This document shows, piece after piece, positions 388-40,690 of a stretch of 64,000 nucleotides of DNA. The position numbers and the translations under genes are program-made. Numbering within the stretch: the stretch's first letter is position 1; every line of letters begins with the position of its first letter. The stretch covers positions 1 to 64,000 of the forward strand of contig NZ_JAJALI010000015.1 of NCBI RefSeq assembly GCF_020523795.1, written 5' to 3'. The notes under the pieces are model-generated. The model saw only the letters and a program-made list of their open reading frames with translations. It ran no database searches and had not been told where the DNA came from. Origin of the DNA: Ancylobacter sp. Lp-2. GTDB lineage: Bacteria > Pseudomonadota > Alphaproteobacteria > Rhizobiales > Xanthobacteraceae.

Positions 388-1043
388 GCGCCGGTGCCGA
401 TGACGAGCTGCCTCCCTCGCGCGCCCAGGCGGAGCCGTCGAGCCGGGAGGCCTCGCGCCACGCGGCCGCCAGCCGCCTGCTCGACCGCGCCCTGCCGCCC
501 GGCTATCGCGAGGAATGGGCGCGCTATTTCGCCCGGGTTCCCGATGTCGACGAGGTCGAGGCGGAGGCGGGCGAGGCGGGAGCGGACCGGCGCGTGCTGG
601 TGTTCCGCCTCGGCGACGAATGGCTGGCGCTGCCTGCCGATCTGGTTCAGGAGATCACCGAGCCGCGTCCGCGCCATACGCTGCCGCACCGGCGCGACGA
701 ACTGGTGCTCGGGGTGGTGAACATTCGCGGCGAACTGCTGGTCGAGATTTCCTTCGCGTCGCTGATCGGCCTCGGCGAGGCGCGCGGCGAGGCGGCGGAG
801 AACCGCATCACCGCCTTCCCGCGTCTCGTCGTGCTCGGCCGGGACCGGCATCGGGTGGCCTTCCGCGTCGACGAGGTGCACGGCCTGCACCAGCACGCGA
901 CGCGTGACCTGGTGGCGCTGCCGGCGACCATCGGCAAGTCGGCGTCCAGCTTCGCGACCGCGATGATCGCCTGGCAGGGCCGCATGCTGGGCCGCCTCGA
1001 CGGCGATCTCGTCCTCGACGCCATCGACCGGGGCATCGCATGA
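384..1043 (+). CDS. wspD: CheW-like coupling protein WspD
   Basis: This 219-aa protein has a CheW fold at about residues 65-215 (RVLVFRLGDEWLALPADLV, then GVVNIRGELLVEI) preceded by a charged extension of about 60 residues. That extension separates WspD from the shorter WspB coupling protein. In the Wsp pathway it links the receptor WspA to the kinase WspE at the inner membrane. The ATG overlaps the wspC stop by 4 nt, and its own stop overlaps the wspE start by 4 nt, indicating translational coupling. Family and order agree; whether this copy works with one receptor cannot be seen here. Confidence 0.85.
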   Translation: MSAGADDELPPSRAQAEPSSREASRHAAASRLLDRALPPGYREEWARYFARVPDVDEVEAEAGEAGADRRVLVFRLGDEWLALPADLVQEITEPRPRHTLPHRRDELVLGVVNIRGELLVEISFASLIGLGEARGEAAENRITAFPRLVVLGRDRHRVAFRVDEVHGLHQHATRDLVALPATIGKSASSFATAMIAWQGRMLGRLDGDLVLDAIDRGIA

Positions 1044-3319: not shown

Positions 3320-3347
3320 GAGGGGCGGACATCATGCGGGGCGCGGG

Positions 3348-4364
3348 ATGAGGATCGGCATCGTCAACGATCTGCCGCTGGCGGCGGAGGTGCTGCGGCG
3401 GGCGGTCGCCGCCACCCATGAGCACGAGGTGGCCTGGATCGCCTCCAATGGGCGCGAGGCGGTGGACGCCTGCCGGCGCGACCTGCCCGATCTCGTGCTG
3501 ATGGACCTTGTCATGCCGGAGATGGACGGGGTGGAGGCGACGCGGCGGATCATGCGGGATACGCCGTGCCCGATCCTCCTGGTCATCGCCAGCGTCGACG
3601 GCAACATTCCCGGCGTCTACGAGGCGATGGGCCATGGCGCACTCGACGCCGTCGACATTCCCTCGGTGAACATCGCCGAGGGAATGTCGATCCAGGCCGA
3701 CGTGCTGCTGAACAAGATCGCCACCATCGGCCGGCTGATCGGCGACGGCCGCTCGTCGCGCCCGGTGCCGCCCGCCGCCCCGGCCGGCGGTTCGGCGCCG
3801 CCGCTGGTGGTCATCGGCGCTTCCGCCGGTGGCCCGGCGGCGGTGGCGACCCTGCTCGGCGGCCTGCCGGCCGATTTCCCGGCCGCGCTGATCCTGGTGC
3901 AGCATGTCGACGAGAAATTCGTCCCCGGCCTCGCCTCCTGGCTCGGGCAGCACACCGGGCTGAAGGTGCGCCCGGCGCTGGAGGGCGACCGGCCGGAGGT
4001 CGGTACGGTGCTGATCGCCGCCTCGGCCGATCACCTCGTGCTCACCGCCATCGGCACGCTCGCCTATACGCCGGAGCCGCGCGCCTATCCCTACCGGCCC
4101 TCGGTCGACGTGTTCTTCAAGAGTGTCGCCCGGCTGTGGCGGGGCGACACCGTCGCCGTGCTGCTTACCGGCATGGGCCGCGACGGCGCGACCGGTCTTA
4201 AAATGCTCCGCGACGCGCATCACCACACGATTGCGCAGGACAAGGACAGCAGTGCGGTTTACGGAATGCCGAAAGCTGCCGCCGCGATAGGTGCGGCGGC
4301 CGAGATACTTCCCCTCGACCTGATCGCCCGTCGCCTGACCGTGGCGTTCGGGCGGTCGCAATGA
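3348..4364 (+). CDS. wspF: CheB-type methylesterase WspF
   Basis: The 338-aa protein has a receiver domain with Asp53 in [13 protein letters not shown], a linker with a [17 protein letters not shown] signature, and a C-terminal CheB methylesterase domain. The catalytic triad is visible: Ser159 in GASAGG, His186 in VQHVD and Asp279 in GMGRDGATG. WspF removes methyl groups from the receptor and so dampens the pathway. In Pseudomonas, loss of WspF gives constitutive c-di-GMP production and wrinkly colonies. Here the gene is intact. It ends 13 nt before wspR. Confidence 0.9.
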
Positions 4365-4377
4365 CGGGCATGGTACG

Positions 4378-5391
4378 ATGAGCAACACCGCCGTTTTCCC
4401 GGCCAACATGCCGCCTCTGGCGGAAGGCTATCTCTCGCTGGTGCTGTTGGTCGACGACCAGGTGCTCATCTGCGAGGCGGTGCGGCGTGCGCTGCTGGGC
4501 GAAGGCGACATCGACCTGCACTATTGCACCAACGCCCAGGACGCGATCCGGGTGGCCGAGGAATTGAAGCCGACGGTCATCCTGCAGGACCTCGTCATGC
4601 CCGGCATAGACGGCCTCGCCTTGGTGCGGCACTACCGGGAGCACCCGACGCTGCAGCCGGTGCCGGTCATCGTCCTGTCGGCCAAGGACGAGGCGGCGAC
4701 CAAGAGCGCGGCGTTCCAGGCCGGTGCCAACGACTATCTCGTCAAGCTGCCCGACCGCATCGAGCTGATCGCCCGCATCCGCTATCACAGCCGCGCCTAT
4801 CTCGATCATCTCCAGCGCGACGCCGCCTATGCGGCGCTGCGCGAGAGCCAGCGCCAGCTGATGCAGGCCAATCTGGAGCTGGAGCGCCTTACCCGCATCG
4901 ACGGGCTGACCAGCCTCGGCAACCGGCGCTATTTCGACGAGTACATGATGGCGGAGTGGCGGCGCGCGCTGCGCGGCGGCCTGACGCTGTCGGTGCTGAT
5001 GATCGATGTCGACCAGTTCAAGGACTACAACGACAACTATGGCCATCTCGCCGGCGATGACGTGCTGCGGCGGGTGGCCGACGCCATTCGCGTCAGCGCC
5101 AGCCGCGCCGGCGATTTGGCGGCGCGCTTCGGCGGCGAGGAGTTCGTCGTGGTGCTGCTGAACACCGGCATCGAGGAGGCGCAGGTCGCCGCCGAGCGGC
5201 TGGTGCAGAACGTGCGCAACCTCGACATCCCGCACGGCAGCAAGCGGGTGACGGTCAGCGTCGGCGTTGCCTCGATGCAGCCGCAAGGCGACCTGCCGGA
5301 GGAGATCATCACCGCCGCCGACCTCGCTCTGTTCCGCGCCAAGGCGTCCGGCAAGGACCGCTACGAGCTGAGCATCCCCGGCGATCGCTAG
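4378..5391 (+). CDS. wspR: Response regulator diguanylate cyclase WspR
   Basis: The 337-aa protein has an N-terminal receiver with Asp71 in ILQDLVMPGIDG, a coiled stalk at about 150-175 and a GGDEF domain. The active site reads GGEEF (252-256), a catalytically competent variant. The allosteric I-site RxxD (RAGD, 243-246) lies exactly five residues upstream, so feedback inhibition by c-di-GMP is expected. Phosphorylation by WspE should switch on cyclisation of two GTP to c-di-GMP, favouring surface attachment. It is the last gene of the wsp operon. No clear terminator is visible in the 51 nt before the convergent ybaK gene. Confidence 0.9.
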   Translation: MSNTAVFPANMPPLAEGYLSLVLLVDDQVLICEAVRRALLGEGDIDLHYCTNAQDAIRVAEELKPTVILQDLVMPGIDGLALVRHYREHPTLQPVPVIVLSAKDEAATKSAAFQAGANDYLVKLPDRIELIARIRYHSRAYLDHLQRDAAYAALRESQRQLMQANLELERLTRIDGLTSLGNRRYFDEYMMAEWRRALRGGLTLSVLMIDVDQFKDYNDNYGHLAGDDVLRRVADAIRVSASRAGDLAARFGGEEFVVVLLNTGIEEAQVAAERLVQNVRNLDIPHGSKRVTVSVGVASMQPQGDLPEEIITAADLALFRAKASGKDRYELSIPGDR

Positions 5392-5901: not shown

Positions 5902-6097
5902 TCCCGCCGCGCGCTCCCGCTGTTCATCGCGGCTGATCCTGCCCGATTCGCCCGCTGCGGCGCAGCATCGAATTGCCCTTGCGTTGTTGAGCGAATTGAA
6001 CATAACTAAACACAAAGCTAAACGCGGCCGGACGCCACCGGCACGTAAACGCCAATCGAGGGGGCAGAAGACCCACCTCGTTTCCTGGGAGGAGAAC

Positions 6098-7432
6098 ATG
6101 CTGAAGACGTTGAGGCCCCTTCTGGGGGCTGCGGTTGCGTTTGGAGCCTTCGCCGGCACGCTCGCCGTGCCGCAGGCAGCCAAGGCCGAGCAGCTGACGC
6201 TGTGCTGGGCGGCCTGGGACCCGGCCAACGCACTGGTCGAGCTGTCCAAGGATTTCACCGCCAAGACCAAGATCGACATGAAGTTCGAGTTCGTCCCGTG
6301 GACGAGCTACGCCGACCGCTTCCTCAACGAGCTCAACTCGCACGGCAAGCTGTGCGACCTGATCATCGGCGACAGCCAGTGGGTCGGCGGCTCGGCGGAG
6401 AACGGCCATTACGTGAAGCTGAACGACTTCTTCGCCAAGGAAGGCATCAAGATGGATGACTTCGTGCCGGCGACCGTCGTGGGTTATTCGGAATGGCCGA
6501 AGAACACGCCGAATTACTGGGCGCTGCCGGCGATGGGCGACGTGGTGGGCTGGACCTACCGCAAGGACTGGTTCGAGAAGCCGGAGCTGCAGAAGGAGTT
6601 CAAGGCCAAATATGGCTGGGACCTCGCGGCGCCGAAGACCTACACCCAGCTGAAGCAGATCGCCGAGTTCTTCCAGAAGAGGCAGATCGACGGCAAGACC
6701 GTCTATGGCGCCTCGATCTATACCGAGCGCGGCTCGGAAGGCATCACCATGGGCGTCACCAACGTCCTGTATGATTGGGGTTTCATGTATGACAACCCCA
6801 AGAAGCCCTATGAGATGCAGGGCTACGTCAATTCGCCGGACGCGGTGAAGGGCCTCGAATTCTACAAGGCGCTCTACGATTGCTGCACCCCGCCGGGTGC
6901 CTCCAACGTCTACATGGTGGAATCTGCCGACGCCTTCAAATCCGGCCAGGTGGCGATGCAGATGAACTTCGCCTTCACCTGGCCCGGCCTCTACAAGGAC
7001 GAGAAGGTCGGCGGCAACCGCATCGGCTTCTTCCCCAATCCGGCCGAGAAGTACCATTTCGCTCAATTGGGCGGGCAGGGCATCTCGGTGGTGTCCTATT
7101 CGGACAAGAAGGACGCGGCGCTCCAGTACATCAAGTGGTTCGCCCAGCCGGACGTGCAGCAGAAATGGTGGCAGCTCGGCGGCTTCTCCTGCCTGAAGGC
7201 GGTGGTCGACGCGCCCAGCTTCAAGACCAGCCAGCCCTATGCGCCGGCCTTCCTGGAATCCATGGCCATCGTCAAGGATTTCTGGGCCGAGCCGAGCTAT
7301 GCCGAACTGCTGCAGGCGATGCAGAAGCGGGTGCATGACTATGTCATCGCCGGCAAGGGCACGGCGAAGGAAGCGCTCGACGGCCTGGTCAAGGACTGGA
7401 CCGAGGTCTTCAAGGACGACGGCAAGATCTGA
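6098..7432 (+). CDS. Extracellular solute-binding protein of a polyol/carbohydrate ABC importer
   Basis: The 444-aa family 1 solute-binding protein has a Sec signal peptide (MLKTLRPLLGAAVAFGAFAG... cleaved about residue 31 after AKA) and a long periplasmic body. The ATG at 6098 follows a strong GGGAGGAGA ribosome site and starts the signal peptide; the frame is open further upstream but non-coding in character. The mature protein has five cysteines, including a CC pair at YDCCTPPG, which is unusual for the family. It is the first gene of an importer operon that leads into dihydroxyacetone kinases. That suggests a small polyol or ketose (glycerol, dihydroxyacetone or a C4 relative) as ligand, but this is inference. 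Confidence 0.88.
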   Translation: MLKTLRPLLGAAVAFGAFAGTLAVPQAAKAEQLTLCWAAWDPANALVELSKDFTAKTKIDMKFEFVPWTSYADRFLNELNSHGKLCDLIIGDSQWVGGSAENGHYVKLNDFFAKEGIKMDDFVPATVVGYSEWPKNTPNYWALPAMGDVVGWTYRKDWFEKPELQKEFKAKYGWDLAAPKTYTQLKQIAEFFQKRQIDGKTVYGASIYTERGSEGITMGVTNVLYDWGFMYDNPKKPYEMQGYVNSPDAVKGLEFYKALYDCCTPPGASNVYMVESADAFKSGQVAMQMNFAFTWPGLYKDEKVGGNRIGFFPNPAEKYHFAQLGGQGISVVSYSDKKDAALQYIKWFAQPDVQQKWWQLGGFSCLKAVVDAPSFKTSQPYAPAFLESMAIVKDFWAEPSYAELLQAMQKRVHDYVIAGKGTAKEALDGLVKDWTEVFKDDGKI

Positions 7433-7443
7433 GGCGACGGGGC

Positions 7444-7464
7444 GGAGAGCCCGCAAGGCTCTCC
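7444..7464 (+). other. Stem-loop directly after the binding-protein gene
   Basis: Perfect 8-bp inverted repeat GGAGAGCC/GGCTCTCC with a 5-nt loop, 12 nt past the stop of the solute-binding protein, followed by TTTCC. The T-run is short for a strong terminator. Such hairpins after binding-protein genes often protect the upstream mRNA or partly terminate, so that binding protein is made in excess over permeases. That role is inferred here. Confidence 0.5.
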
Positions 7465-7519
7465 TTTCCGGCACGAGAGATATCTGCCGAGCCATTCCGG
7501 GATCGCCCCTTCTTTCTTT

Positions 7520-7679
7520 CCCTCTCCCCGGTGGGGAGAGGGGCCCGCGCACCGGGTCGGTGAGGGGCCCTCGCGATCGGGAAGCCAAGAAGGCCGCTCA
7601 CCCCGTCCCTCTCGGTCAAAACCGAATGCCTTCGGTTTTGACCATCCAGATCCCGAATTCGGCAACAGCCGAGTTCGGG
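7520..7679 (+). repeat. Composite intergenic hairpin element
   Basis: Part of the 353-nt gap between the binding protein and first permease genes, with three further hairpins in a row. The first is CCCTCTCCCC/GGGGAGAGGG with a GGT loop (7520-7542). The second is a perfect 13-bp GGTCAAAACCGAA/TTCGGTTTTGACC with loop TGCC (7614-7643). The third is CCCGAATTCGGC/GCCGAGTTCGGG with one G-T pair (7652-7679). The stretch AAGGCCGCTCACCCCGTCCC at 7590 recurs nearly identically at 42312. I see no gene in this gap. It looks like a dispersed non-coding element lodged in an operon. Confidence 0.6.
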
Positions 7680-7785
7680 GAGGGAGGGAACCGCCGGGCC
7701 TCCACGTGACGGTTCTGTTGCAGGTGGCCGCGTGGCCGCCCAGGACCAGACCCGGCCCACCCGCTCATCCATCAGGTGAGAGACC

Positions 7786-8754
7786 GTGACCGCTTCACAC
7801 GACACCTTCTCCGACAAGATGGCCGACGCGGCCATCCGCGCGACGCCCGAACCGCTCGCCGCAAGGGTGCGCGGCCTGTCCGACCGGGCCATCGCCTGGC
7901 TGTTCATCGCCCCGACCATCGTGCTGCTGCTGGCGATCAACATTTTCCCGCTGTTCTGGGCGATCTATCTGTCCTTCACCAATTTCCGCGCCAACCGGCC
8001 CAATGCGGTGGTGCAGAATGTCGGGCTCGGCAATTATTCGCGCATCCTCAACGACCCCGACATCTGGGCGTCGATGCAGACCACGGCGCATTTCGTGTTC
8101 TGGACCATCGTGCTGCAGACGCTGATCGGCTTCACGCTGGCCTATCTCATCGACCGCAAGTTCCGTGGCCACGCCTTCTGGACCACGCTGATCCTCATCC
8201 CGATGATGCTGTCGCCGGCGGTGGTGGGCAATTTCTGGCGCTTCCTCTACGAGCCGCAGATCGGCCTGTTCGCCTATGCCGTCTCCTTCGTGTCGGGCAT
8301 CCCGACCTCCGACATCCAGATGCTCGGCAACGTCCATCTCGCGCCCTGGGCGATCATCATCGTCGATACCTGGATGTGGACGCCCTACGTGATGCTGATC
8401 TGCCTCGCCGGGCTGCGCTCCATCCCCGACTACATCTACGAGGCGGCCGAGGTCGACCGCGCTTCGCCCTGGCGGCAGTTCTGGTCGATCACCGTGCCGA
8501 TGGCGCTGCCCTTCATCATGCTGGCCGTGCTGTTCCGCGGCATCGAGAACTTCAAGATGTTCGACATGGTGAACCTGCTCACCGGCGGCGGGCCGGGTTC
8601 GACCACCGAGGTCGCCTCGATCGCGCTCAAGCGCGACGCCTTCGAGGCGTGGGCGACCGGGCGCTCCTCCGCCTTCGCCATCGTGCTGTTCGTCGCGGTG
8701 TTCGGCCTCGCCAACATCTATGTGAAGGCGCTGAACAAGGTGAAGCAGAGATGA
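7786..8754 (+). CDS. ABC transporter permease (MalF/UgpA family)
   Basis: The 322-aa inner-membrane protein has about six predicted helices, the first at about residues 42-65 (IAWLFIAPTIVLLLAINIFP). The EAA loop that docks to the ATPase reads YEAAEVDRASPWRQFWSITVP, near residues 221-241. It starts with GTG at 7786; no strong alternative start is closer to the first helix. Its stop overlaps the start of the second permease gene (ATGA), so the two are likely coupled and form a heterodimeric channel. Family membership is clear, substrate is not. Confidence 0.9.
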   Translation: MTASHDTFSDKMADAAIRATPEPLAARVRGLSDRAIAWLFIAPTIVLLLAINIFPLFWAIYLSFTNFRANRPNAVVQNVGLGNYSRILNDPDIWASMQTTAHFVFWTIVLQTLIGFTLAYLIDRKFRGHAFWTTLILIPMMLSPAVVGNFWRFLYEPQIGLFAYAVSFVSGIPTSDIQMLGNVHLAPWAIIIVDTWMWTPYVMLICLAGLRSIPDYIYEAAEVDRASPWRQFWSITVPMALPFIMLAVLFRGIENFKMFDMVNLLTGGGPGSTTEVASIALKRDAFEAWATGRSSAFAIVLFVAVFGLANIYVKALNKVKQR

Positions 8755-9719
8755 GCACCAGCAAGGCCGCCCCCGCCGTCTCCGCCCATTCGGTCGTCGA
8801 GCCGAGCCCGCGCACCAAGCGCATCGCCGGCGCCCTCGTCATCCTCTACGCGCTCATCACCCTGGTGCCGCTGGTGTGGATCTTCCTCACCTCGATCAAG
8901 TCGCCGCCGGATTCGATCTCCTACCCGCCGAAGATCCTGTTCACGCCGTCGCTCGAGGGCTACTGCAACCTCTTCACCACCCGCACGCGGCAGACGCCGG
9001 ACTACATCGCCGCTCTGCCGCCGCCGTCCGGCGTGTGCGACGCGGTGACCCGCGAGCGCAACATGGTGATCGCCGGCCCGTCCAACTTCCTGCCGCGCTT
9101 CGCCAATTCGCTGATCATCGCCTTCGGCTCGACCTTCCTCGCCGTGTCGCTGGGCACGCTGGCGGCCTATGGCTTCTCGCGCTTCAAGGTGCCGCTGGCC
9201 GACGACCTTCTGTTCTTCATTCTGTCGACGCGGATGATGCCGCCCATCGCGGTCGCCATCCCGATCTACCTGATGTACCGCCAGCTCGGCCTGTCCGACA
9301 CCGCGCTCGGCATGATGCTGCTCTACACGGCGGTGAACGTCTCGCTGGCGGTCTGGCTGCTCAAGGGCTTCATCGACGAGATCCCGCGCGAATATGAGGA
9401 AGCCGCGATGATCGACGGCTACACGCGGCTGCAGGCCTTCTTCAAGGTGGTGCTGCCGCAGGCTACCACCGGCATCGCCGCCACCGCGATCTTCTGCCTG
9501 ATCTTCGCCTGGAACGAATACGCCTTCGCCTCGCTGCTCACCTCGGGCTCGGCTCAGACCGCGCCGCCCTTCATCCCCACCATCATCGGCGAGGGTGGGC
9601 AGGACTGGCCGGCGGTGGCGGCGGGCACCACCATCTTCCTGGTGCCGATCCTCGTCTTCACCATCCTGCTGCGTAAACAGCTGCTGCGCGGCATCACCTT
9701 CGGGGCGGTGCGCAAATGA
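8751..9719 (+). CDS. ABC transporter permease (MalG/UgpE family)
   Basis: The 322-aa MalG-type permease has a first helix at about residues 25-45 and an EAA loop YEEAAMIDGYTRLQAFFKVV near the C-terminal third. Between helices 1 and 2 it carries a long periplasmic loop with two cysteines (GYCNLFTT and SGVCDAVT), about 45 residues longer than a minimal loop. The ATG overlaps the preceding stop, and its stop overlaps the next small gene by 4 nt. It pairs with the upstream permease. Confidence 0.9.
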   Translation: MSTSKAAPAVSAHSVVEPSPRTKRIAGALVILYALITLVPLVWIFLTSIKSPPDSISYPPKILFTPSLEGYCNLFTTRTRQTPDYIAALPPPSGVCDAVTRERNMVIAGPSNFLPRFANSLIIAFGSTFLAVSLGTLAAYGFSRFKVPLADDLLFFILSTRMMPPIAVAIPIYLMYRQLGLSDTALGMMLLYTAVNVSLAVWLLKGFIDEIPREYEEAAMIDGYTRLQAFFKVVLPQATTGIAATAIFCLIFAWNEYAFASLLTSGSAQTAPPFIPTIIGEGGQDWPAVAAGTTIFLVPILVFTILLRKQLLRGITFGAVRK

Positions 9720-9922
9720 CCGACCATACGCTGATCCCCGGCAAGTCCCGCCGGCCGTTCTTCCTGCGGCGCGGCCCGATGGAAATGCTTGCCGTCGCCC
9801 TCATCGCGCTCGGCTTCCTCATGCTGTTCCAGCCCTTCGCGCTGGTGCTCTACACCTATTCCTTCATCACCCTCCTCGCCGGCACGCTGATGTTCACCAT
9901 CGTGTCGAAATTCCCGGAGTAG
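9716..9922 (+). CDS. Small membrane protein of the ABC operon
   Basis: The 68-aa protein has a basic N-terminus (GKSRRPFFLRR) and two hydrophobic helices at about residues 23-40 and 44-63. It overlaps the permease gene by 4 nt and ends 4 nt before the first ATPase gene, so it is clearly a translated member of the operon. Glycerol ABC operons of rhizobia (glpSTPQUV) also carry a small membrane protein, GlpU, between permease and other genes. I do not recognise this one as that family. It may be an accessory subunit; function unknown. Confidence 0.75.
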   Translation: MTDHTLIPGKSRRPFFLRRGPMEMLAVALIALGFLMLFQPFALVLYTYSFITLLAGTLMFTIVSKFPE

Positions 9923-9926
9923 GCCG

Positions 9927-11069
9927 ATGGCCGAGATCAGGGTCGACCACCTCCGCAAGGCCTTCGGCGAGTTCGTCGCGGTGCAGGATTCCTCCTTCAC
10001 CGTCGAGGACGGCGAGTTCCTCGCCCTTCTCGGGCCGTCGGGCTGCGGCAAGACCACCACTTTGCGCATGATCGCCGGGCTGGAGCTGCCCACCGGCGGC
10101 GCCATCCATCTCGGCGGCGAGGACGTCACCTACAAGCGCGCCAGCGAGCGCGACATCGCCTTCGTGTTCCAGCTCTTCGCGCTCTACCCGCACATGAACG
10201 TGCGCCGGAACATCGGCTTCCCGCTGCTCTCGCAGGGCGTGCCGAAGGCGGAGATAAAGCGCCGCGTCGAGGAGACGGCGAAGCTCCTGCAGATCGACCA
10301 CATCCTCGACCGCCCGGTGTCCGGCCTCGCCGGCGGCGACCGCCAGCGGGTGGCGCTGGGCCGCGCCATCGTGCGGCGGCCGAAATGCTTCCTGATGGAC
10401 GAGCCGCTCGGCACGCTCGACGCCGAGTTCCGCGATGTGATGGTCCGCGAGCTGCGCGAACTGCACAACCGCATCCACGCCACCACGGTCTACGTCACCC
10501 ACGACCAGATTGAGGCGATGGCGATGGCCGACAAGATCGCGGTGATGAATCACGGCATCATCGAGCAGTTCGCCACCCCGCGCGAGATCTACAACCGCCC
10601 GGCCTCGATGTATGTCGCCGACTTCATCGGTTCGCCGCCGATGAACTTCCTGCGCTTCACCGCCGGCCTGCCGAAGGGTGCCCGCATCGCCCGCATCGAC
10701 GGGGCGGATGTGCAGATGCCCGAGTTGCGCGCCGACGTCGCCGAGGGCGAGCTCGCCTTGGGCGTGCGTCCCGAGCACATCCGCTTTTCCGACACCTCGC
10801 CGCTGCGCGGGGCGATCTATGGCGCGGAATATCTCGGCACCAACCAGATCGTCACGGTCGAGACGGCGGGCGGCCTCGTCCGCGCCCGTCTGCCGGCCGA
10901 GCGCTCCTACCGCATCGGCGACCGCGTCGGCCTCGCCTTCGTCGCCGACCGGCTGTCGCTGTTTGATTGCCGTAGCGGCCGCGCCGTTCCCTCGGTGCTG
11001 CATGAGGGCGTGCTGGCGCGCGACACCCGCCACCGCGAAATGCGCGATCTGGAGGCCCATCATGGCTGA
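9927..11069 (+). CDS. ABC transporter ATP-binding protein with divergent signature motif
   Basis: The 380-aa MalK-type ATPase has Walker A GPSGCGKTT (36-44), Q-loop FQLFALYPHM, Walker B CFLMDEP (154-160), switch His192 and a C-terminal TOBE-like region. The ABC signature, usually LSGGQ, reads LAGGD (134-138), and the D-loop region reads LGTLD instead of LSNLD. Its partner encoded just downstream keeps LSGGE. A heterodimer would therefore have one standard and one altered ATP site. The two-ATPase arrangement resembles GlpS/GlpT of rhizobial glycerol importers. It overlaps the next gene by 8 nt. Confidence 0.88.
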   Translation: MAEIRVDHLRKAFGEFVAVQDSSFTVEDGEFLALLGPSGCGKTTTLRMIAGLELPTGGAIHLGGEDVTYKRASERDIAFVFQLFALYPHMNVRRNIGFPLLSQGVPKAEIKRRVEETAKLLQIDHILDRPVSGLAGGDRQRVALGRAIVRRPKCFLMDEPLGTLDAEFRDVMVRELRELHNRIHATTVYVTHDQIEAMAMADKIAVMNHGIIEQFATPREIYNRPASMYVADFIGSPPMNFLRFTAGLPKGARIARIDGADVQMPELRADVAEGELALGVRPEHIRFSDTSPLRGAIYGAEYLGTNQIVTVETAGGLVRARLPAERSYRIGDRVGLAFVADRLSLFDCRSGRAVPSVLHEGVLARDTRHREMRDLEAHHG

Positions 11070-12078
11070 TGTCACGCTGAAGAGCGTCACCCGCAGCTTC
11101 GGCGACAAGCGCGCGGTCGACAGTCTCGACCTGCATATTGCCGATGGCGAATTCGTGGTGCTGCTCGGCCCCACCGGCGCCGGCAAGACCACCACGCTGC
11201 GCCTCATCGCCGGGCTGGAGAAGCCGGATGCCGGCACGGTGGAGATCGGCGGGCGGCCGATGAACGGCCAGTCCCCCGCCGGGCGCGACGTCGCCTTCGT
11301 GTTCCAGCAATATTCGCTGTACCCGCATCTCACCGTCTACGAGAACCTGGCCTTCCCGTTGCGCTCGCCGGCGCGGCGGATGGACAAGGCGACCATCGAT
11401 GCCCGGGTGCGGCAGGTGGCGAAGATGGTGCGCATCGACCACAAGCTGGAGAACCGCTCGACAAGGCTGTCGGGCGGCGAGATGCAGCGCGTCGCCATCG
11501 GCCGGGCGCTGGTGCGCCGGCCCTCGATCTACCTGATGGACGAGCCGCTCTCTTCGCTCGACGCCAAGCTGCGCGGCGAATTGCGTCTCGAGCTGAAGCG
11601 CATCCAGAAGGAACTCGGCGCCACCCTGCTCTACGTCACCCACGACCAGATCGAGGCGATGACCATGGCCGACCGCATCGGCATCCTCGCCGAGGGCAAG
11701 CTGGTGCAGATCGGCACCCCGCGCGAGATCTACGCCAACCCGGCCAATCTGCACGTCGCCGCCCGGCTCGGCCAGCCGCACATCAATCTGGTGCCGCCGG
11801 GCCTGCTGCCCGACGCCGCCACGCCGGTGGGCACCCGCACCATCGGCGCGCGTACCGAGCATCTGGAGATCGCCCGCACCCGGGAGGGCGCCGCCGGCAA
11901 TGCCGAGGTCGACTGGATCGAGCATCTCGGCGACCAGAACCACCTGCACATCAAGGTCGACGGCCACAAGCTGGTGACGCTGGCCGATCCCGACCTGCCG
12001 GTCGAGGCGGGCGACCGTGTCAGCGTGCGATTGCGCCAGCCACTCTATTTCGGTGGCGACGGGCAGCGCCTCGCGTGA
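11062..12078 (+). CDS. ABC transporter ATP-binding protein (canonical partner)
   Basis: The 338-aa MalK/UgpC-type ATPase has Walker A GPTGAGKTT, Q-loop FQQYSLYPHL, signature LSGGE (136-140), Walker B SIYLMDEP, D-loop LSSLD and switch His in VTHDQIEAM, then a TOBE domain. The ATG at 11062 lies inside the upstream ATPase gene and gives the standard N-terminus; the longer frame upstream is a shadow of that gene. It is the last importer gene. A 151-nt gap with an inverted repeat (GAGCCCG/CGGGCTC, 12189-12214) precedes the kinase genes. Confidence 0.9.
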   Translation: MADVTLKSVTRSFGDKRAVDSLDLHIADGEFVVLLGPTGAGKTTTLRLIAGLEKPDAGTVEIGGRPMNGQSPAGRDVAFVFQQYSLYPHLTVYENLAFPLRSPARRMDKATIDARVRQVAKMVRIDHKLENRSTRLSGGEMQRVAIGRALVRRPSIYLMDEPLSSLDAKLRGELRLELKRIQKELGATLLYVTHDQIEAMTMADRIGILAEGKLVQIGTPREIYANPANLHVAARLGQPHINLVPPGLLPDAATPVGTRTIGARTEHLEIARTREGAAGNAEVDWIEHLGDQNHLHIKVDGHKLVTLADPDLPVEAGDRVSVRLRQPLYFGGDGQRLA

Positions 12079-12229
12079 CATGAAGACAGGCGGCGCGGTT
12101 CGCTGCGTCGCATCATGTGTCGGCCAGCGCCTCTTCCGGTCGGGTCCCTTGCCCGGTCGATAGGAAGAAGTGCCGGATTCAGGAGAGTGAGCCCGATCCG
12201 GTCGGGGCGGGCTCTGGGGATCGGAAGCA

Positions 12230-13864
12230 ATGACCAAGCATTTCTTCAACCGCCGCGAGGCCATCGTCACCGAGGCGCTGGACGGTCTCATCCGTACCAC
12301 TCCGCCCGGCCGGCTGGCCCGGCTCGACACCTATCCCGACATCAAGGTGGTCCTCCGCGCCGATTGGGACAGGTCGAAGGTGGCGGTGGTCTCCGGCGGC
12401 GGCGCCGGTCACGAGCCCTCGCATGCCGGCTTCGTCGGCCGCGGCATGCTCACCGCCGCCGTCTCCGGCGAGATCTTCGCCTCGCCGAGCGTGGAAGCCG
12501 TGCTCACCGCCATCCGCGCCGTCACCGGCGCGCCGGGCTGCCTGCTGGTGGTGAAGAACTACACCGGCGACCGGCTGAATTTCGGCCTCGCCGCCGAGCG
12601 CGCCCGCGCCGAGGGCTTCAAGGTCGAGGTGGTGATCGTCGCCGACGACATCGCGCTGCCCGACCTGCCGCAGCCGCGCGGCATCGCCGGCACGCTGTTC
12701 GTGCACAAGATCGCCGGCCATCACGCCGAGGCGGGCGCCGACCTTGCCAGCGTGGCGGCGGCGGCCAAGGCGGCGGCGCACGACATCGCCTCGCTTGGCG
12801 TGTCGTTCTCCTCCTGCTCGATCCCCGGCCAGAATTTCACCGAGCGGCTCGGCGAGGCCGAGGGTGAGCTCGGCCTCGGCATCCACGGCGAGCCGGGCGT
12901 CGAGCGTATCGCGGTGCAGCCGGTCGACGCGCTGGTGGCGCGGATGGGCGAGCATCTGGCGCCGAAGCTCGAAGCCGGCGCCAGCTACGCCCTGCTGGTC
13001 AACAATCTCGGCGCCGTGCCGCCTTTGGAGATGTCGCTGATCGCCGACAGCGTGCTGCGCGCGCCGCTCGGCGCCGGGGTGAAGCTGGTAATCGGCCCGC
13101 AGGCGCTGATGACGGCGCTGAACATGAACGGCTTCTCGCTGTCCTTCCTCAAGCTCGACGCCGCGCGGGAAGCCGCGCTGGCCTCGCCGGTCGAGCCGCT
13201 GGCCTGGCGTCCGGCGGTGACGGCCGGCCCGGTCGTCGTGGTGCCGGCGCCCGCCGCGCCGCGCGCCGAGATCCCGCCCGCCAGCGGCGACGCCACCGCC
13301 GAGGCGGTGATCCGCACCGCCTGCGCCGCCCTCATCGGGCTGGAGGCGGAGCTGAACCGCCTCGACGCCAAGGCGGGCGACGGCGATACCGGCTCCACCG
13401 TCGCTACCGGCGCCCGCGCCATCGAGGGCAAGCTCGCCTCCCTGCCGCTCGCCGACATCGCCGCGACGCTCGCCGTCATCGGCGAGACGCTGGCCACCGC
13501 CATGGGCGGGTCGAGCGGCGTGCTGCTCTCCATCTTCTTCACCGCGAGCGCCAAGGCGGTCGCCGAGGGCAAGAACATCCCCGCCGCGCTGCTCGCCGGC
13601 CTCGACCGCATGACCTTCTATGGCGGGGCGACGCTGGGCGCCCGCACCATGGTCGACGCGCTCGATCCCGGCTTGAAGGCGCTGGCGTCCGGCGGCCTCC
13701 CCGGCGCCGCCGAGGCGGCGGATACCGGCGCTGAGGCCACCAAGGCGATGACCCATGCCCGCGCCGGCCGCGCTTCCTATGTCGCGGCGCGCGATCTCGA
13801 AGGCTCGGCCGATCCCGGCGCGGTGGCGGTGGCTGCGGTGTTCGCGGCGCTCGCGCGGGGATAG
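12230..13864 (+). CDS. ATP-type dihydroxyacetone kinase, DhaK-DhaL fusion
   Basis: The 544-aa protein has a DhaK domain at about residues 1-330 and a DhaL domain at about 345-540. The DhaK part has VVSGGGAGHEPSHAGFVG and the hemiaminal-forming His219 in GLGIHGEPG, to which the ketose binds covalently. The DhaL part has GDGDTG (Asp384, Asp386 for Mg-ATP). DGDTG with a fused layout is typical of ATP-dependent kinases. The separate DhaL downstream has DGDHG, the PTS type. Likely reaction: dihydroxyacetone or a related C3/C4 ketose plus ATP to the phosphate. The stop is followed within 30 nt by the dhaL start. Confidence 0.88.
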   Translation: MTKHFFNRREAIVTEALDGLIRTTPPGRLARLDTYPDIKVVLRADWDRSKVAVVSGGGAGHEPSHAGFVGRGMLTAAVSGEIFASPSVEAVLTAIRAVTGAPGCLLVVKNYTGDRLNFGLAAERARAEGFKVEVVIVADDIALPDLPQPRGIAGTLFVHKIAGHHAEAGADLASVAAAAKAAAHDIASLGVSFSSCSIPGQNFTERLGEAEGELGLGIHGEPGVERIAVQPVDALVARMGEHLAPKLEAGASYALLVNNLGAVPPLEMSLIADSVLRAPLGAGVKLVIGPQALMTALNMNGFSLSFLKLDAAREAALASPVEPLAWRPAVTAGPVVVVPAPAAPRAEIPPASGDATAEAVIRTACAALIGLEAELNRLDAKAGDGDTGSTVATGARAIEGKLASLPLADIAATLAVIGETLATAMGGSSGVLLSIFFTASAKAVAEGKNIPAALLAGLDRMTFYGGATLGARTMVDALDPGLKALASGGLPGAAEAADTGAEATKAMTHARAGRASYVAARDLEGSADPGAVAVAAVFAALARG

Positions 13865-13890
13865 TGGAAACCAGCACAGGGGAGGAGCCG

Positions 13891-14505
13891 ATGCATCTCG
13901 CCGCCGCCGATCTCTCCGCGCTGATCGCCCTGTGCCGGGCGGAGATCGACCGGCATGGCGAGCATCTGGGCGCGCTCGACAGCGCCATCGGCGACGGCGA
14001 CCACGGCGCCAATATGCGGCGCGGCCTCGAGGCGGTGTTCGCCGAGCGCGACGCCATCGCCGCCCTGCCGCTGCCGGCGGCGCTGGAGCGCATCGGCCTG
14101 GTGCTGGTGATGAATATCGGCGGCGCCGCCGGCCCGCTCTACGGCACGCTCTTGATGGAGCTCGGCCGCGCGCTGCCCGACGGCGACGAGGCCGACGACC
14201 TCGCCGCCCCGCTTGAGCGCGCCATCGCCGCCGTGGCGCGGCGCGGCCGCTCCGGTCCCGGCGACAAGACGCTGCTCGACGTGCTTTACCCGGTGCAGGC
14301 CGAACTGGTAAGGCGCTCGCCGCCGGGCGACATCGCCGCCTGCGCCCGCTCGGCGGCCCATTCCACCGGGCCGATGCAGGCGCGACGCGGTCGGGCGTCG
14401 TTTCTCGGCGCCCGCTCCATCGGCCACGAGGATCCCGGCGCCTCCAGCTGCGCCCTGCTCACCGCCGCCATCTGCGGCTATTTCGAGGAGCACCGCCCGT
14501 CATGA
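13891..14505 (+). CDS. dhaL: PTS-type dihydroxyacetone kinase ADP-binding subunit DhaL
   Basis: The 204-aa DhaL protein has the nucleotide/Mg motif GDGDHG (Asp35 and Asp37 with His38), typical of PTS-dependent kinases in which DhaL keeps ADP bound and is rephosphorylated by DhaM. I chose the ATG at 13891 over an in-frame GTG at 13864 because GGAGGAG lies 4-10 nt upstream of it. Overlaps dhaM by 4 nt. It should transfer phosphate from DhaM to the ketose bound on DhaK. Here DhaK is encoded 3 kb downstream, unless the fused kinase supplies the partner domain. Confidence 0.88.
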   Translation: MHLAAADLSALIALCRAEIDRHGEHLGALDSAIGDGDHGANMRRGLEAVFAERDAIAALPLPAALERIGLVLVMNIGGAAGPLYGTLLMELGRALPDGDEADDLAAPLERAIAAVARRGRSGPGDKTLLDVLYPVQAELVRRSPPGDIAACARSAAHSTGPMQARRGRASFLGARSIGHEDPGASSCALLTAAICGYFEEHRPS

Positions 14506-14924
14506 ACGCGCGTGCCGACCAGCCCTCCGCGCCGTCCCCGGCCAATGTCGGCATCGTCATCGTGTCGCATTCGCCGCTGGTGGCGAAGGGCGCCGCCGAC
14601 ATGGTGCGCCAGATGGTCGGCGACTGCGTGCCGCTCGCCTGGACCGGCGGCAATGTCGAGGGCGGGCTCGGCACCCATGTCGCCGGCATCGCGGCGGCGA
14701 TCGAGGCGGCGTGGTCGGAGGCAGGGGTCGCGATCTTCGTCGATCTCGGCGGCGCCGAGACCAATAGCGAGATGGCGGTCGAGCGGCTGGGCCCGGCGCG
14801 GGCGGCCCGCGTCGCCATCTGCAACGCCCCGCTGGTCGAGGGCGCGGTGGTGGCCGCCGCCGAGGCGTCGGGGGGCTCCAGCCTCGCCAAGGTGGTGGCG
14901 ACCGCCGAGGAGCTGTCCCCCTGA
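14502..14924 (+). CDS. dhaM: PTS-type dihydroxyacetone kinase phosphoryl donor DhaM (EIIA-Man domain only)
   Basis: The 140-aa single-domain EIIA-Man fold has its phospho-histidine in VIVSHSPLVAKG (His23). In E. coli, DhaM is one polypeptide of EIIA, HPr and truncated EI domains. Here only EIIA is present, and the next two genes encode HPr and EI in the same order. It takes phosphate from HPr and recharges ADP on DhaL. Overlapping start and stop codons tie it to dhaL and to the HPr gene. Confidence 0.88.
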   Translation: MNARADQPSAPSPANVGIVIVSHSPLVAKGAADMVRQMVGDCVPLAWTGGNVEGGLGTHVAGIAAAIEAAWSEAGVAIFVDLGGAETNSEMAVERLGPARAARVAICNAPLVEGAVVAAAEASGGSSLAKVVATAEELSP

Positions 14925-15286
14925 TGAGCGAGCCCAGCCCCGCCTTTCCGCGCGAGCGCAGCGGCGCCCGCTGGCAGACCGAGGTGGAAGTCACCCACGG
15001 CATCGGCCTGCATGCGCGCCCCTCGGTCGCCTTCACCCGGCTGGCCAAGAGCTTTCCCTGCGCCATCGAGGTGGCGGTGGACGGCTCGGCGGACTGGCTG
15101 AACGGCAAGAGCATCGTGAAGATCATGGGCGCCCGCATCCGTCGCGGCACCCGCCTGCGCATCCGCGCCGAGGGCTTTCGCGCCGAGGAGGCGATCGTCG
15201 CGCTCGGCGAGCTGGTGCGGCGCAATTTCGACGAGGACCGCAAGAATGCCCGTGCCGATGGTCGTCCGGATGGCCGGCCCGCGTGA
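14924..15286 (+). CDS. HPr-family phosphocarrier dedicated to the DhaM system
   Basis: The 120-aa protein has an extension of about 20 residues before the HPr core. The active-site His30 is in GIGLHARPS, and a Ser63 in NGKSIVKIM matches the regulatory Ser46 region of HPr. Its position between dhaM and the EI gene indicates that it shuttles phosphate from EI to DhaM. The start overlaps the dhaM stop by one base, and its 3' end overlaps the EI reading frame. Whether HPr kinase acts on Ser63 cannot be judged from this window. Confidence 0.88.
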   Translation: MSEPSPAFPRERSGARWQTEVEVTHGIGLHARPSVAFTRLAKSFPCAIEVAVDGSADWLNGKSIVKIMGARIRRGTRLRIRAEGFRAEEAIVALGELVRRNFDEDRKNARADGRPDGRPA

Positions 15287-16961
15287 GCTGACCGGCAAGG
15301 CGGCCTCGCCCGGCCGCGCCTGCGGTCCGGCGTTCCGCGCCCTCGCGCCGGCCGCGCCCCCGGCGATGGCCGGGGAGGACGCGCGCGCCGCGCTGGCCGG
15401 CGCGGTGACGGTGGCGATCGGCGAATTGCGGGCGCTGGCCGCCGGCGCCGATGCCGAGAGCGCCGGCGTGCTCGACTTCCAGATCGAGATGCTGCTCGAC
15501 GACGACCTGATCGAGCCGGCGCTCGCGCGCATCGCCCGCGGGGAGGGCGCCGCGCTGGCCTGGGCCGGCGCGATGGACGCCCACATCGCCGCGCTGGTCG
15601 CCGATGACGGCCACGATGCGGCGGACACCATTGGGGCGCGCGGCGCTGGCGAAGATGCCTTCGCCGATGGGGTTGGGGAGCGCGGCTCCGGCGAGGACGC
15701 CTTCGCCGATGGAGTTGGAGAGCGCGGCGCTGGCGAAGATGCCTTCGCCGCGCGGGCCGCCGATCTCGCCGACCTCCGGCAGCGCGTGCTCGATGCGCTC
15801 GCCGGACGGCCGCGTGCCGATTTCCCCGCCGCCGCGATCTATGTCGGCGACGACATGCCGCCCAGCCTGTTCCTCGCCCATGACTGGTCGAAGGGCGGCG
15901 GCATCGCGCTCGGCGCCGGCAGCACGGTGAGCCATGTCGCCATGTTGGCCCGCGCGCGCGGCGTGCCGATGGTCATCGGCCTCGGGCCGCTCGCCGTCGT
16001 CGCCGGCCAGCCGCTGCTCGTCGACGGCACGGCCGGGCGGGTCGGCCTCGATCCGGCCGAACCGGTCGCGCCGCCGCTTCCGACCATCATTCCCGCCGCC
16101 GTCGCCGGGCCGGGCGGGGCGTTCCGGCTGAGCGTCAACCTCAACAGCCTGTCCGACCTCGCCGCCGTCGATCCCGCCACGGTGGACGGCGTCGGGCTGG
16201 TACGCAGCGAATTCCTGTTCCTCTCGCCGGCCGAGGCGCTGAGCGAGGAGCGGCATGTCGACTGCTACCGCGCCATCCTCGCGCGCTTTTCCGGCCGCCC
16301 GGTGCGGCTGCGGTTGCTCGATCTCGGCGGCGACAAGGCGCTGCCCGGCCTCGTCGAAGGCGGGCCGGCCTCGCTGCTCGGCGAGCGCGGCATCCGCTTC
16401 CTGCTGGCGCATCCCGATCTCGCCCGCATCCAGGCGCGGGCGATCCTGCGCGCGGCGGCGGACAGTCCGGCAACCCGTGACTCCGTCAGCGTGCTGCTGC
16501 CGATGGTGACGCTGCCGCAGGAGGTCGCCGCCATGGCCGCCTTGTTCGATGAGGAGGCCGCCCGCCTCGCCCGGCTCGGCATCGCCGCGCGGCGCCCGCC
16601 GCTCGGCATCATGGTGGAGGTGCCGGCCGCTGCCCTCACGCTCGACCTGTTCGAGGCGGCGGCGTTCTTTTCGGTGGGGACCAACGATCTGATGCAGTAT
16701 CTGTCGGCGGCCGCGCGCGACAATCCCATCGCCGCCCCGCTCAATGCCGGCTCGGAGACCGCCTTGTTCCGCCTGATGGCCCAGATCGCGACGACCGCGG
16801 AGGCGCTCGGCAAGCCGGTGTCGGTCTGCGGCGACCTCGCCGGCGATCCGGAGGCGCTGGCGCGGCTGGTCGGCCTCGGCTTCCGCGATTTCTCGGTCGC
16901 ACCCTCGCGCCTCGCCGCCATCGGCCCGCTGCGGCGCGCCATGCCCGCCGGGGAGGGGTGA
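15246..16961 (+). CDS. Phosphoenolpyruvate-protein phosphotransferase (Enzyme I)
   Basis: This 571-aa Enzyme I is full length. Phospho-His230 is in STVSHVAMLARARG. The PEP-binding region includes GLVRSEFLF and RLLDLGGDKALPG. GTNDLMQY and the catalytic Cys528 in VSVCGDLAGD complete the site. PEP phosphorylates this protein, which passes phosphate to HPr, DhaM and DhaL. Residues about 131-168 carry three copies of a 14-residue repeat (RGxGEDAFADGVGE) in the HPr-binding helical region, which pushes the active His about 30 residues further along than in E. coli after N-terminal offset. Start is uncertain: ATGs at 15246, 15258 and 15270 are in frame, all inside the HPr gene. Confidence 0.9.
   Translation: MPVPMVVRMAGPRELTGKAASPGRACGPAFRALAPAAPPAMAGEDARAALAGAVTVAIGELRALAAGADAESAGVLDFQIEMLLDDDLIEPALARIARGEGAALAWAGAMDAHIAALVADDGHDAADTIGARGAGEDAFADGVGERGSGEDAFADGVGERGAGEDAFAARAADLADLRQRVLDALAGRPRADFPAAAIYVGDDMPPSLFLAHDWSKGGGIALGAGSTVSHVAMLARARGVPMVIGLGPLAVVAGQPLLVDGTAGRVGLDPAEPVAPPLPTIIPAAVAGPGGAFRLSVNLNSLSDLAAVDPATVDGVGLVRSEFLFLSPAEALSEERHVDCYRAILARFSGRPVRLRLLDLGGDKALPGLVEGGPASLLGERGIRFLLAHPDLARIQARAILRAAADSPATRDSVSVLLPMVTLPQEVAAMAALFDEEAARLARLGIAARRPPLGIMVEVPAAALTLDLFEAAAFFSVGTNDLMQYLSAAARDNPIAAPLNAGSETALFRLMAQIATTAEALGKPVSVCGDLAGDPEALARLVGLGFRDFSVAPSRLAAIGPLRRAMPAGEG
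15639..15750 (+). repeat. 42-bp tandem in-frame repeat inside Enzyme I
   Basis: Units begin at 15639, 15681 and 15723 with an exact 42-nt period; the third is cut after 28 nt. The first 28 nt of units 1 and 3 are identical and unit 2 differs at 4 positions. Each unit contains a hairpin, GGCGAAG-ATGC-CTTCGCC in units 1 and 3, with one wobble pair in unit 2. The period is a multiple of three, so the reading frame is kept and encodes RGxGEDAFADGVGE. Confidence 0.8.
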
Positions 16962-16964
16962 GCC

Positions 16965-17372
16965 GTGGCGCGGGAGCTCGACGAGGCGGTGATCGCCTAC
17001 AAGGCCATGCTGGCCGGCATTCTCGACAACCGGCCCTCCGGCACCCGCCAGCGGCTGGCCTCGGCGCTCGGCAAGCATCGCAGCTTCGTCACCCAGGTGA
17101 CCAGCCCGACCTATGACACGCCGCTGCCGGCCCGGCACTTGCCGACGATCTTCCGCGTCTGCCATTTCAGCCCGGCCGAGCAGGAGCGCTTCCTGCTCGC
17201 CTATGACGCCGCCCATCCCGGCAAGCTGCCGGAGGCCGGGGGCGGTGAGCGGCTGCGCCCGCTGACGCTGATGGCGCCGGACTTCGGCGACGACAAGAAG
17301 AACCGCCAGTTCGACGAGGCGGTCGCCGAGTTCGCCCAGAAGATGGCGGCGCTGGTGAATGGCGGTGAGTGA
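16965..17372 (+). CDS. Hypothetical HTH-like protein in the dihydroxyacetone kinase cluster
   Basis: The 135-aa protein begins at GTG 16965, 3 nt after the EI stop, behind a GGGGAGGGG ribosome site. Residues about 27-60 (TRQRLASALGKHRSFVTQVT...) look like an XRE-type helix-turn-helix, and the C-terminus is a short amphipathic helix. I do not recognise the family. Its place between EI and dhaK suggests a local regulator or adaptor of the kinase cluster, but no enzymatic motif is visible. Position and codon use support a real gene. Confidence 0.7.
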   Translation: MARELDEAVIAYKAMLAGILDNRPSGTRQRLASALGKHRSFVTQVTSPTYDTPLPARHLPTIFRVCHFSPAEQERFLLAYDAAHPGKLPEAGGGERLRPLTLMAPDFGDDKKNRQFDEAVAEFAQKMAALVNGGE

Positions 17373-17423
17373 GCGGTTCCACCATAGCGGCATCCGCCCG
17401 CTTGCGCGCCGGAGCGCCGGGCG

Positions 17424-18425
17424 ATGAAGAAGATCATGAACGCGCCGGAGCGTTTCGTCGCCGAGAGCCTCGACGGGTTGGTGCGCGCGCATGCCGAGCT
17501 CGTCACTTTCGGCGGCGGGCGCAAATTCGTCCGGCGGCGCCAGCTGGTGCCGGGCAAGGTGGCGGTGATCTCCGGCGGCGGCGCCGGCCACGAGCCGCTG
17601 CATTCCGGCTTCGTCGGGTTGGGCATGCTGGATGCTGCCTGCACCGGCCATGTCTTCACCTCGCCGACGCCCGACCAGATCGTCGCGGCGATGGACGAGA
17701 CCGATACCGGCGCCGGCTGCCTGCTGATCGTCAAGAATTACGACGGCGACGTGATGAATTTCGAGATGGCGGCGGAGATGGCCGCCGACCGTCATGCCGT
17801 CGAGACCGTCATCGTCGAGGACGACGCCGCCACCGGGCCGGCGGTGCGCAGCCGGGGCCGGCGCGGGGTCGCCGGCACGGTGGTGGTGGAGAAGCTGATC
17901 GGCGCCGCCGCCGAGCGCGGGGCGGACCTCGCGGCGCTGAAGGCGCTGGGCGACGGGCTCAATGCCGGCATCCGCTCGATGGGCGTCGCCCTGCGCGGCG
18001 TGGCGATACCGAACAACCCGCGCGAGACCTTCGTGCTCGGGCCGGAGGAGATGGAGATCGGCGTCGGCATCCATGGCGAGCCGGGTCTCGATCGTACCCG
18101 CTTCGCCGACGCCGACGCCATCATCGGCCAGCTCGGCGCGGCCATCCTCGCCGAATTGCCGGCGGAGCTGACGGCGGCGACGGACCTTCACCCTCTGCTG
18201 GTGGTCAACGGCTTCGGCGGCACGCCGCCGATCGAGCTCTATCTCGCCTATGGCCTGGCGCATCGCTTCTTCGAGGCGCGGGGCCTGGCGCCGGTGCGCT
18301 CGCTCACCGGCACCTTCGTCACCTCGCTGGACATGGCCGGGCTGTCGGTGACGCTGGCGCTGCTCACGACCGATCAGCTGGCGCTGTGGGATGCCCCGGT
18401 GGCGACGCCGACGCTGAACTGGTGA
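17424..18425 (+). CDS. dhaK: Dihydroxyacetone kinase substrate-binding subunit DhaK
   Basis: The 333-aa stand-alone DhaK has VISGGGAGHEPLHSGFVG and the substrate-binding His217 in GVGIHGEPG. It lacks a DhaL domain and so needs DhaL in trans; the PTS-type dhaL and dhaM genes upstream provide this. It is the second DhaK-type protein of the locus. It may phosphorylate the same ketose as the fused kinase with a different phosphate donor, or a different C3/C4 ketose. Its 3' end overlaps the convergent quinone reductase gene by 52 bp. Confidence 0.88.
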   Translation: MKKIMNAPERFVAESLDGLVRAHAELVTFGGGRKFVRRRQLVPGKVAVISGGGAGHEPLHSGFVGLGMLDAACTGHVFTSPTPDQIVAAMDETDTGAGCLLIVKNYDGDVMNFEMAAEMAADRHAVETVIVEDDAATGPAVRSRGRRGVAGTVVVEKLIGAAAERGADLAALKALGDGLNAGIRSMGVALRGVAIPNNPRETFVLGPEEMEIGVGIHGEPGLDRTRFADADAIIGQLGAAILAELPAELTAATDLHPLLVVNGFGGTPPIELYLAYGLAHRFFEARGLAPVRSLTGTFVTSLDMAGLSVTLALLTTDQLALWDAPVATPTLNW

Positions 18426-27702: not shown

Positions 27703-27789
27703 GTAAGAATTAAGAATTGTTTAGTTGACAGTAACGGCATAGCGGGCGGATAGGCAGCGTAGTTCTTGTGCAGCCGATGACACCGATCC

Positions 27790-28926: not shown

Positions 28927-28960
28927 TCGGCCTCATCGCATCCCGCAACGGAGATTTCCC

Positions 28961-30157: not shown

Positions 30158-30167
30158 CGCCGAGGAC

Positions 30168-33953: not shown

Positions 33954-33958
33954 ACGCG

Positions 33959-40532: not shown

Positions 40533-40673
40533 CTCCGTCCCACTCGGCCTGTTTGCGCGGCGTGTCGCGACGCTATCCGTCGCGTGGCCCGGCGAGCGGG
40601 GCTCTCGCGGCGGCGCGCAAGGTTCAATGCCCGAGCCGTCCGTACCGGTCAAGTTTCTGATGTCGCTCAATAA

Positions 40674-40690
40674 TTTAGAATCGTTTCAGT
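40674..40690. promoter_or_regulatory. Irr-box-like motif in the permease/esterase divergent promoter
   Basis: TTTAGAA-TCG-TTTCAGT has a perfect left half of the iron control element TTTAGAA-N3-TTCTAAA and a poor right half. It lies in an AT-richer patch of the 233-nt gap between the permease (minus) and esterase (plus) genes, where iron control would be expected. Confidence 0.3.

Follow-up and report, generated by a model that had tools for sequence, protein, structure and literature searches.

A candidate dihydroxyacetone importer with a swappable kinase module and a predicted regulator of its own in Ancylobacter sp. Lp-2

Gene content of the importer-kinase block

In the soil bacterium Ancylobacter sp. 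Lp-2, a block of thirteen genes, all on the + strand between positions 6098 and 18425, probably imports the three-carbon sugar dihydroxyacetone (DHA) and phosphorylates it in two ways. Coordinates refer to the window, that is, the whole stretch of 64,000 nucleotides (nt) that was analysed. Pfam and NCBIfam scans of the window proteins gave the order binding protein (SBP), permeases P1 and P2, a 68-residue protein (sTM), ATPases A1 and A2, a DhaK-DhaL fusion (KL), DhaL, DhaM, HPr, enzyme I (EI), a 135-residue protein (X135) and DhaK. Intergenic distances range from -41 to +4 nt, except for SBP-P1 (353 nt), A2-KL (151 nt) and X135-DhaK (51 nt), and the block is therefore likely to form one transcript. 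The genes and order given in the original prediction were borne out, in that Pfam or NCBIfam assigned every gene named there. Its list was correct but lacked two genes, sTM (9716-9922) and X135 (16965-17372), and its account of the operon overlooked the latter as a probable in-operon regulator, together with its operator.

The ATP-binding cassette (ABC) importer comprises the periplasmic SBP (6098-7432; Pfam SBP_bac_8 and SBP_bac_1), the permeases P1 (7786-8754) and P2 (8751-9719), both matching BPD_transp_1, and two ATPases of the UgpC/MalK type, A1 (9927-11069; ABC_tran, TOBE_2 and OB_MalK) and A2 (11062-12078; ABC_tran and TOBE_2). No Pfam or NCBIfam family was found for the small hydrophobic sTM, whose position in the block is conserved.

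KL (12230-13864; Dak1 and Dak2) is of the ATP type. It aligned over its full length with the solved DHA kinase PDB 1un9 (509 bits), is 97% identical to the KL of A. sonchi, and combines fused DhaK and DhaL domains with a GHEP motif, the covalent His and GDGDTG. The separate DhaL (13864-14505) carries GDGDHG, scored 181.9 bits against TIGR02365 (cut-off 138.3) and matched the DhaL of the phosphotransferase system (PTS) type, PDB 2btd, with 117 bits. DhaM (14502-14924), of the EIIA-Man type, scored 125.7 bits against TIGR02364 (cut-off 98.25). HPr (14924-15286; Pfam PTS-HPr) has the GLHARP site, and EI (about 15246-16961, with 15246, 15258 or 15270 as the possible start) contains all three Pfam parts, the PEP-utilisers N, mobile and C domains. 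DhaK (17424-18425) lies far above the Pfam Dak1 cut-off and is nearer to the PTS type (276 bits to PDB 1uoe) than to the ATP type (152 bits to 1un8). The active-site motifs of the PTS set are present, namely GIHGEP with the covalent His in DhaK, GDGDHG with its Asp in DhaL and VSHS with its His in DhaM.

These motifs are well kept in the loci read. KL retains GHEP and GDGDTG in 99 of 99 cases and GIHGEP in 92 of 99. Those without GIHGEP, seven in all, come from loci with KL as the only kinase; the two that were inspected have GIHGEA instead and retain the His. In the PTS set, GIHGEP is found in 106 of 107 DhaK sequences, VSHS in 103 of 103 DhaM sequences and the His of GLHAR in 101 of 102 HPr sequences. 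Degeneration of EI was considered when a first motif pattern missed 27 of 97 sequences, and was rejected upon alignment, which recovered invariant catalytic His and Cys columns in all 98 EIs, that of the window included. Judged by their sequences, both kinases look active, which supports the predicted presence of an ATP-type and a PTS-type chemistry side by side.

The relay that would feed the PTS-type kinase was predicted to be private to the operon. An HPr and a full EI are indeed encoded in the block, but the relay is not strictly private, because six of 80 loci compared (see below) are without an in-block EI and the genome of Lp-2 contains one more EI-type gene (an 809-residue open frame) and one more HPr elsewhere. 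The six EI-less loci, five from Phyllobacterium and one from a Rhizobiales isolate (L067), retain HPr, DhaM, DhaL, DhaK and X135, with HPr followed by X135 after 17-76 nt in the four that were measured. At these loci, HPr would depend on a different EI.

Linkage of the importer to a swappable kinase module

A pattern scan with KL, using one genome per species, yielded 287 relatives, of which the best 80 loci were analysed. All thirteen genes occur in order in 69 of these 80. Of the remaining eleven, six lack only EI, one lies on a 13.1-kb contig that ends before DhaK, one lies on a contig of 4.4 kb, and at three loci KL stands outside any such block. Because KL had been the query for this set, the importer was used as the next query. 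The SBP was present at E <= 1e-60 in 22 of 385 genomes of the class (the window, 20 further loci and G337), and a DHA-kinase module stands behind the importer in all 22. The same arrangement was seen in 5/5 plasmid regions sampled from 802 matching records. The linkage of importer and kinases, which had been proposed from a single genome, is thus real and conserved, and a DHA-type kinase is the one partner that the importer always has.

The nature of that kinase varies. Behind the importer, the 22 class genomes have KL alone (seven), the PTS set alone (nine), both (two) or DhaL and DhaK (four). The two chemistries described for the window are both there but do not form a fixed pair; since the module differs among these genomes, their combination is one state of a swappable kinase module. 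On an importer tree built from SBP, P1 and P2 (43 rows, with 15 of the 84 rows of the double type kept), at least seven changes are needed to account for the four module states. From the kinase side the linkage is loose, with KL or the PTS set found without the importer at six loci (L012, L037, L058, L148, L149 and L200). Among these, L148 has KL together with the PTS set, and L149 and L200 have the PTS set. Three related genomes, each about 1.4 Mb in size (L124, L125 and L150), have just DhaL and DhaK behind the importer, and DhaM, HPr and EI are absent there.

Genes for LacI-type proteins, searched for with three LacI proteins from KL-only loci as queries, are distributed unevenly among the module states: they occur in 9 of 10 KL-only loci, none of 78 loci with KL and the PTS set, 4 of 9 PTS-only loci and 2 of 5 loci with DhaL and DhaK.

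X135 and the predicted operator

Searches against Pfam, NCBIfam and PDB sequences gave no match for X135, whose best Pfam score is far under the cut-off. An AlphaFold model built with 25 sequences (predicted local distance difference test, pLDDT, 83) arranges helices 27-35 and 39-46 as a helix-turn-helix, with an extra C-terminal helix at 110-131. The top PDB matches of this model in Foldseek are lambda-repressor and restriction-controller proteins, with probabilities near 1 but E-values from 0.17 upwards and sequence identities of about 10-20%; a viral fold library returned generic repressor-type matches only. In the class survey, X135 was found in 13 of 385 genomes, with the PTS set adjoining in 13/13. 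None of the 15 importer loci that lack a PTS set (11 from genomes and 4 from plasmids) has it.

The operon promoters of loci with X135 contain GTTTAGT-N12-ACTAAAC repeats. Of 87 loci with X135, 79 have an exact half-site no more than 300 bp from the start of SBP, and none of 15 loci without X135 has one. Elsewhere in these X135 loci, the half-site occurs 14 times in 1,817,456 bases. Convergent arms are most often 12 nt apart, and direct arms most often recur with a period of 12 nt. In the window, the predicted operator (5986-6023, + strand) consists of GTTGAGC at 5986, ACTAAAC 12 nt further on at 6005 and, after 5 nt, GCTAAAC at 6017, the left arm having two mismatches to GTTTAGT. Its ACTAAACNNNNNRCTAAAC part (6005-6023) is the sole match in the 5.59-Mb genome to a pattern that was derived from this same site. 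Each of the three X135 loci that lack an importer (L148, L149 and L200) likewise has exact half-sites upstream of its kinase genes, and 10 of 10 loci fetched from 19 genomes of the phylum that have X135 show one upstream of the operon; one of the ten (L179) comes from the genome of L083, leaving nine new ones.

Co-occurrence extends to the order as a whole. The exact palindrome is present in 17 of 199 genomes; all of these belong to the 42 genomes that have X135, and the remaining 157 lack it (Fisher 1.5e-13, relatedness ignored), whereas a reversed-pattern control matched six genomes, none of which has X135. Sixteen of the 17 palindromes share a contig with X135, at a distance of 2.9-11 kb, and the seventeenth is at an operon split across two contigs; in the eight whose gene maps were read, the palindrome stands 5' of the first gene. 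The modelled helix-turn-helix and the confinement of the palindrome to X135 genomes suggest that X135 is probably the operon's own regulator.

A second conserved box precedes the operator. In the window it reads TGCGGCGCAGCA (5956-5967, + strand); its family form TGCNNYGCARCA occurs in 55 of 87 promoters with X135 and in 0 of 15 without. The distance to the operator is 17-18 nt in 37 of 38 promoters measured. The box is perhaps the site of a carbon-status regulator of the PhaR/AniA kind. A sigma-70 scan gave no match, with 0.8 expected. Upstream of the SBP in four KL-only loci (L108, L109, L127 and L128), the promoters have a palindrome resembling GAGGTGCGCACCTC or TGAGGTGCGCACCTCA instead, the TGAGGTGCGCACCTCA-like form being a candidate site for the LacI protein of those loci.

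Ligand, mechanism and relation to known systems

Taken together, these data make it reasonably probable that the block is a self-contained operon for the uptake of DHA and its conversion to DHA phosphate by two routes, with X135 as the local regulator. SBP would catch DHA, and P1, P2, A1, A2 and sTM would bring it into the cell, where KL could phosphorylate it at the expense of ATP. Alternatively, DhaK and DhaL would use phosphate relayed from phosphoenolpyruvate (PEP) through EI, HPr and DhaM. The resulting DHA phosphate would pass straight into central metabolism, and the block would therefore need no further enzyme. X135 would act as a local transcription factor on the GTTTAGT/ACTAAAC repeats of the promoter. 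We infer the direction of this regulation as well as its signal, whose likely source is the PTS-type kinase or its relay, as X135 accompanies the PTS set and not the importer or KL. A more tentative extension, which we rate as somewhat doubtful, is that X135 may found a new family of regulators that sense phosphorylation or occupancy of the PTS-type DHA-kinase relay and set the expression of their own operon, so that the switch, be it X135 or LacI, and its operator tend to be swapped along with the kinase module.

The identity of the ligand is open to other explanations. The importer could instead carry a four-carbon ketose, for example erythrulose, or a pair of related ketoses with one for each kinase; erythrulose is a substrate of the DHA-type kinases in known tetritol pathways, the residues of the DHA pocket are compatible with it, and two kinases in one block could reflect two substrates. 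Tetrulose pathways require phosphate isomerases, however, and family scans of the thirteen genes detected neither an isomerase, a tetrulose-phosphate isomerase included, nor a dehydrogenase, in agreement with the predicted lack of a glycerol or polyol dehydrogenase. No gene common to the genera was seen among the 40 largest flanking families listed in a survey of open reading frames of >= 90 residues within 4.5 kb of loci with SBP and DhaK; the largest families represent 15 loci, all from a single genus cluster, and a mixed family comprises nine loci. The idea that a regulator flanks the full block was likewise rejected, since none of those 40 families is shared by the genera. DHA phosphate is thus the simplest product, and DHA is favoured over erythrulose as the inferred ligand because no isomerase or dehydrogenase accompanies the block. 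Moreover, the importer is paired with KL alone or with the PTS set alone, as though one substrate were enough, and we consider the erythrulose and two-ketose explanations unlikely. Import of glycerol or glycerol phosphate, with the kinases using DHA made by a dehydrogenase encoded elsewhere, appears very unlikely: the two ATPases and the small membrane protein recall the architecture of the Rhizobium glycerol importer GlpSTPQV, and Ugp proteins are among the best NCBIfam models for the permeases and ATPases, but the Ugp equivalog and subfamily cut-offs are not reached (UgpA 98 of 335, UgpE 82.6 of 297, and UgpC 383.7 and 345.7 of 432 bits), and the block has neither a glycerol dehydrogenase nor a glycerol kinase.

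A further alternative concerns the switch and leaves the ligand aside. The GTTTAGT repeat might be bound by a regulator encoded elsewhere, with X135 otherwise employed, for example in assisting the PTS kinase. The poor Foldseek E-values of X135, the second conserved box adjoining the repeat and the LacI gene present at some X135 loci are in keeping with this, but the motif follows X135 to loci without an importer, the palindrome of the order survey is confined to X135 genomes (17 of 17), and X135 itself is modelled as a helix-turn-helix protein. We regard this alternative as distinctly unlikely.

Several observations weigh against a DHA operon controlled by X135. The structure model of SBP (pLDDT 54) is too poor for judging the ligand, and the nearest PDB sequence relatives of the protein are weak matches that bind other sugars and do not decide the matter. 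KL scored 522.6 bits against the TIGR02361 equivalog cut-off of 574.95, and DhaK 385.8 bits against the TIGR02363 cut-off of 406.25. Two kinases in one block would be redundant on this reading. As for X135, its Foldseek E-values are 0.17 and up, eight of the 87 promoters with X135 have no exact half-site (most have near-copies), and the strict palindrome is missing from 25 of 42 X135 genomes, that of the window included. Four PTS-only loci have a LacI gene in addition to X135, and an orphan X135 paralogue (position 12044 of L204, from genome G826) occurs without PTS genes. Finally, the loci are related, and their counts are therefore not independent.

The PTS-dependent DhaKLM systems of E. coli and L. 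lactis (PDB 1uoe, 3pnl, 2btd, 3cr3 and 3ct6) share the catalytic motifs of DhaK, DhaL and DhaM with the window, whereas the block also encodes an ABC importer, X135, and HPr and EI as separate genes. Neither DhaR nor DhaS/DhaQ, the known DhaKLM regulators, is encoded in the block. With the ATP-dependent DhaK-DhaL kinase (PDB 1un9) KL shares its whole length, but it falls under the TIGR02361 cut-off and adjoins a complete PTS set. X135 may resemble regulators of the XRE/lambda-repressor type in the helix-turn-helix core of its model, although no Pfam or NCBIfam helix-turn-helix model is reached.

The closest reported relative is the Bradyrhizobium diazoefficiens cluster blr3566-blr3577, which, as listed in its report, has the order of the block minus KL: SBP, two permeases, a small hypothetical protein, two ATPases, a DhaL-like protein, EIIA, HPr, EI, a hypothetical protein and DhaK (PMC5017801). 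The hypothetical protein blr3576 can be likened to X135 by position alone, not by sequence. According to that report, the genes of the cluster are co-regulated: loss of blr7984 function by mutation induces them 4.2- to 24.3-fold, and bacteroids express them at 0.17-0.60 of the level of free-living cells (PMC5017801). This co-expression counts in favour of the operon proposed here. A second source places blr3566 among genes with Mesorhizobium orthologues (PMC8632152). The suggestion that the system was undescribed therefore holds in part: a co-regulated cluster of this kind had already been reported, but without KL (PMC5017801). A literature search that covered few subscription journals turned up neither a study of the ligand nor a DHA-specific importer of the binding-protein type. 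What is new about the system is the way in which known parts are combined, together with one novel part, X135 with its predicted operator.

The candidate DHA importer occurs in many Alphaproteobacteria, rhizobia included. Its constancy in the face of interchangeable ATP- and PEP-dependent kinases amounts to a natural experiment on the choice of phosphoryl donor, and X135 and the predicted operator give a hypothetical protein a testable role.

A third DhaK/DhaL pair is encoded elsewhere in the Lp-2 genome (C27; L171, 7571-16849), with an ABC importer of a different type, an aldo/keto reductase, a short-chain dehydrogenase and a LacI gene. Its DhaK was considered as part of the same system and rejected on account of the other importer type, the dehydrogenase-like genes and the LacI gene; the locus is probably a separate polyol or ketose system. 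The orphan X135 paralogue of L204 sits between a glucan-branching enzyme gene and a luciferase-like enzyme gene. In the window, a gene with a tRNA-editing domain lies upstream of the block on the opposite strand; downstream are genes for a flavodoxin-fold protein and a LysR regulator. Chemotaxis-type genes occupy 378-5391 (CheW, a CheA-type kinase, CheB and a diguanylate cyclase). A probable siderophore cluster at 27781-40685 encodes a periplasmic metal-type binding protein, a chorismate-binding enzyme, an AMP-binding enzyme, a short-chain dehydrogenase, a FecCD permease, an ABC ATPase and a 1417-residue condensation-adenylation-carrier-thioesterase protein.

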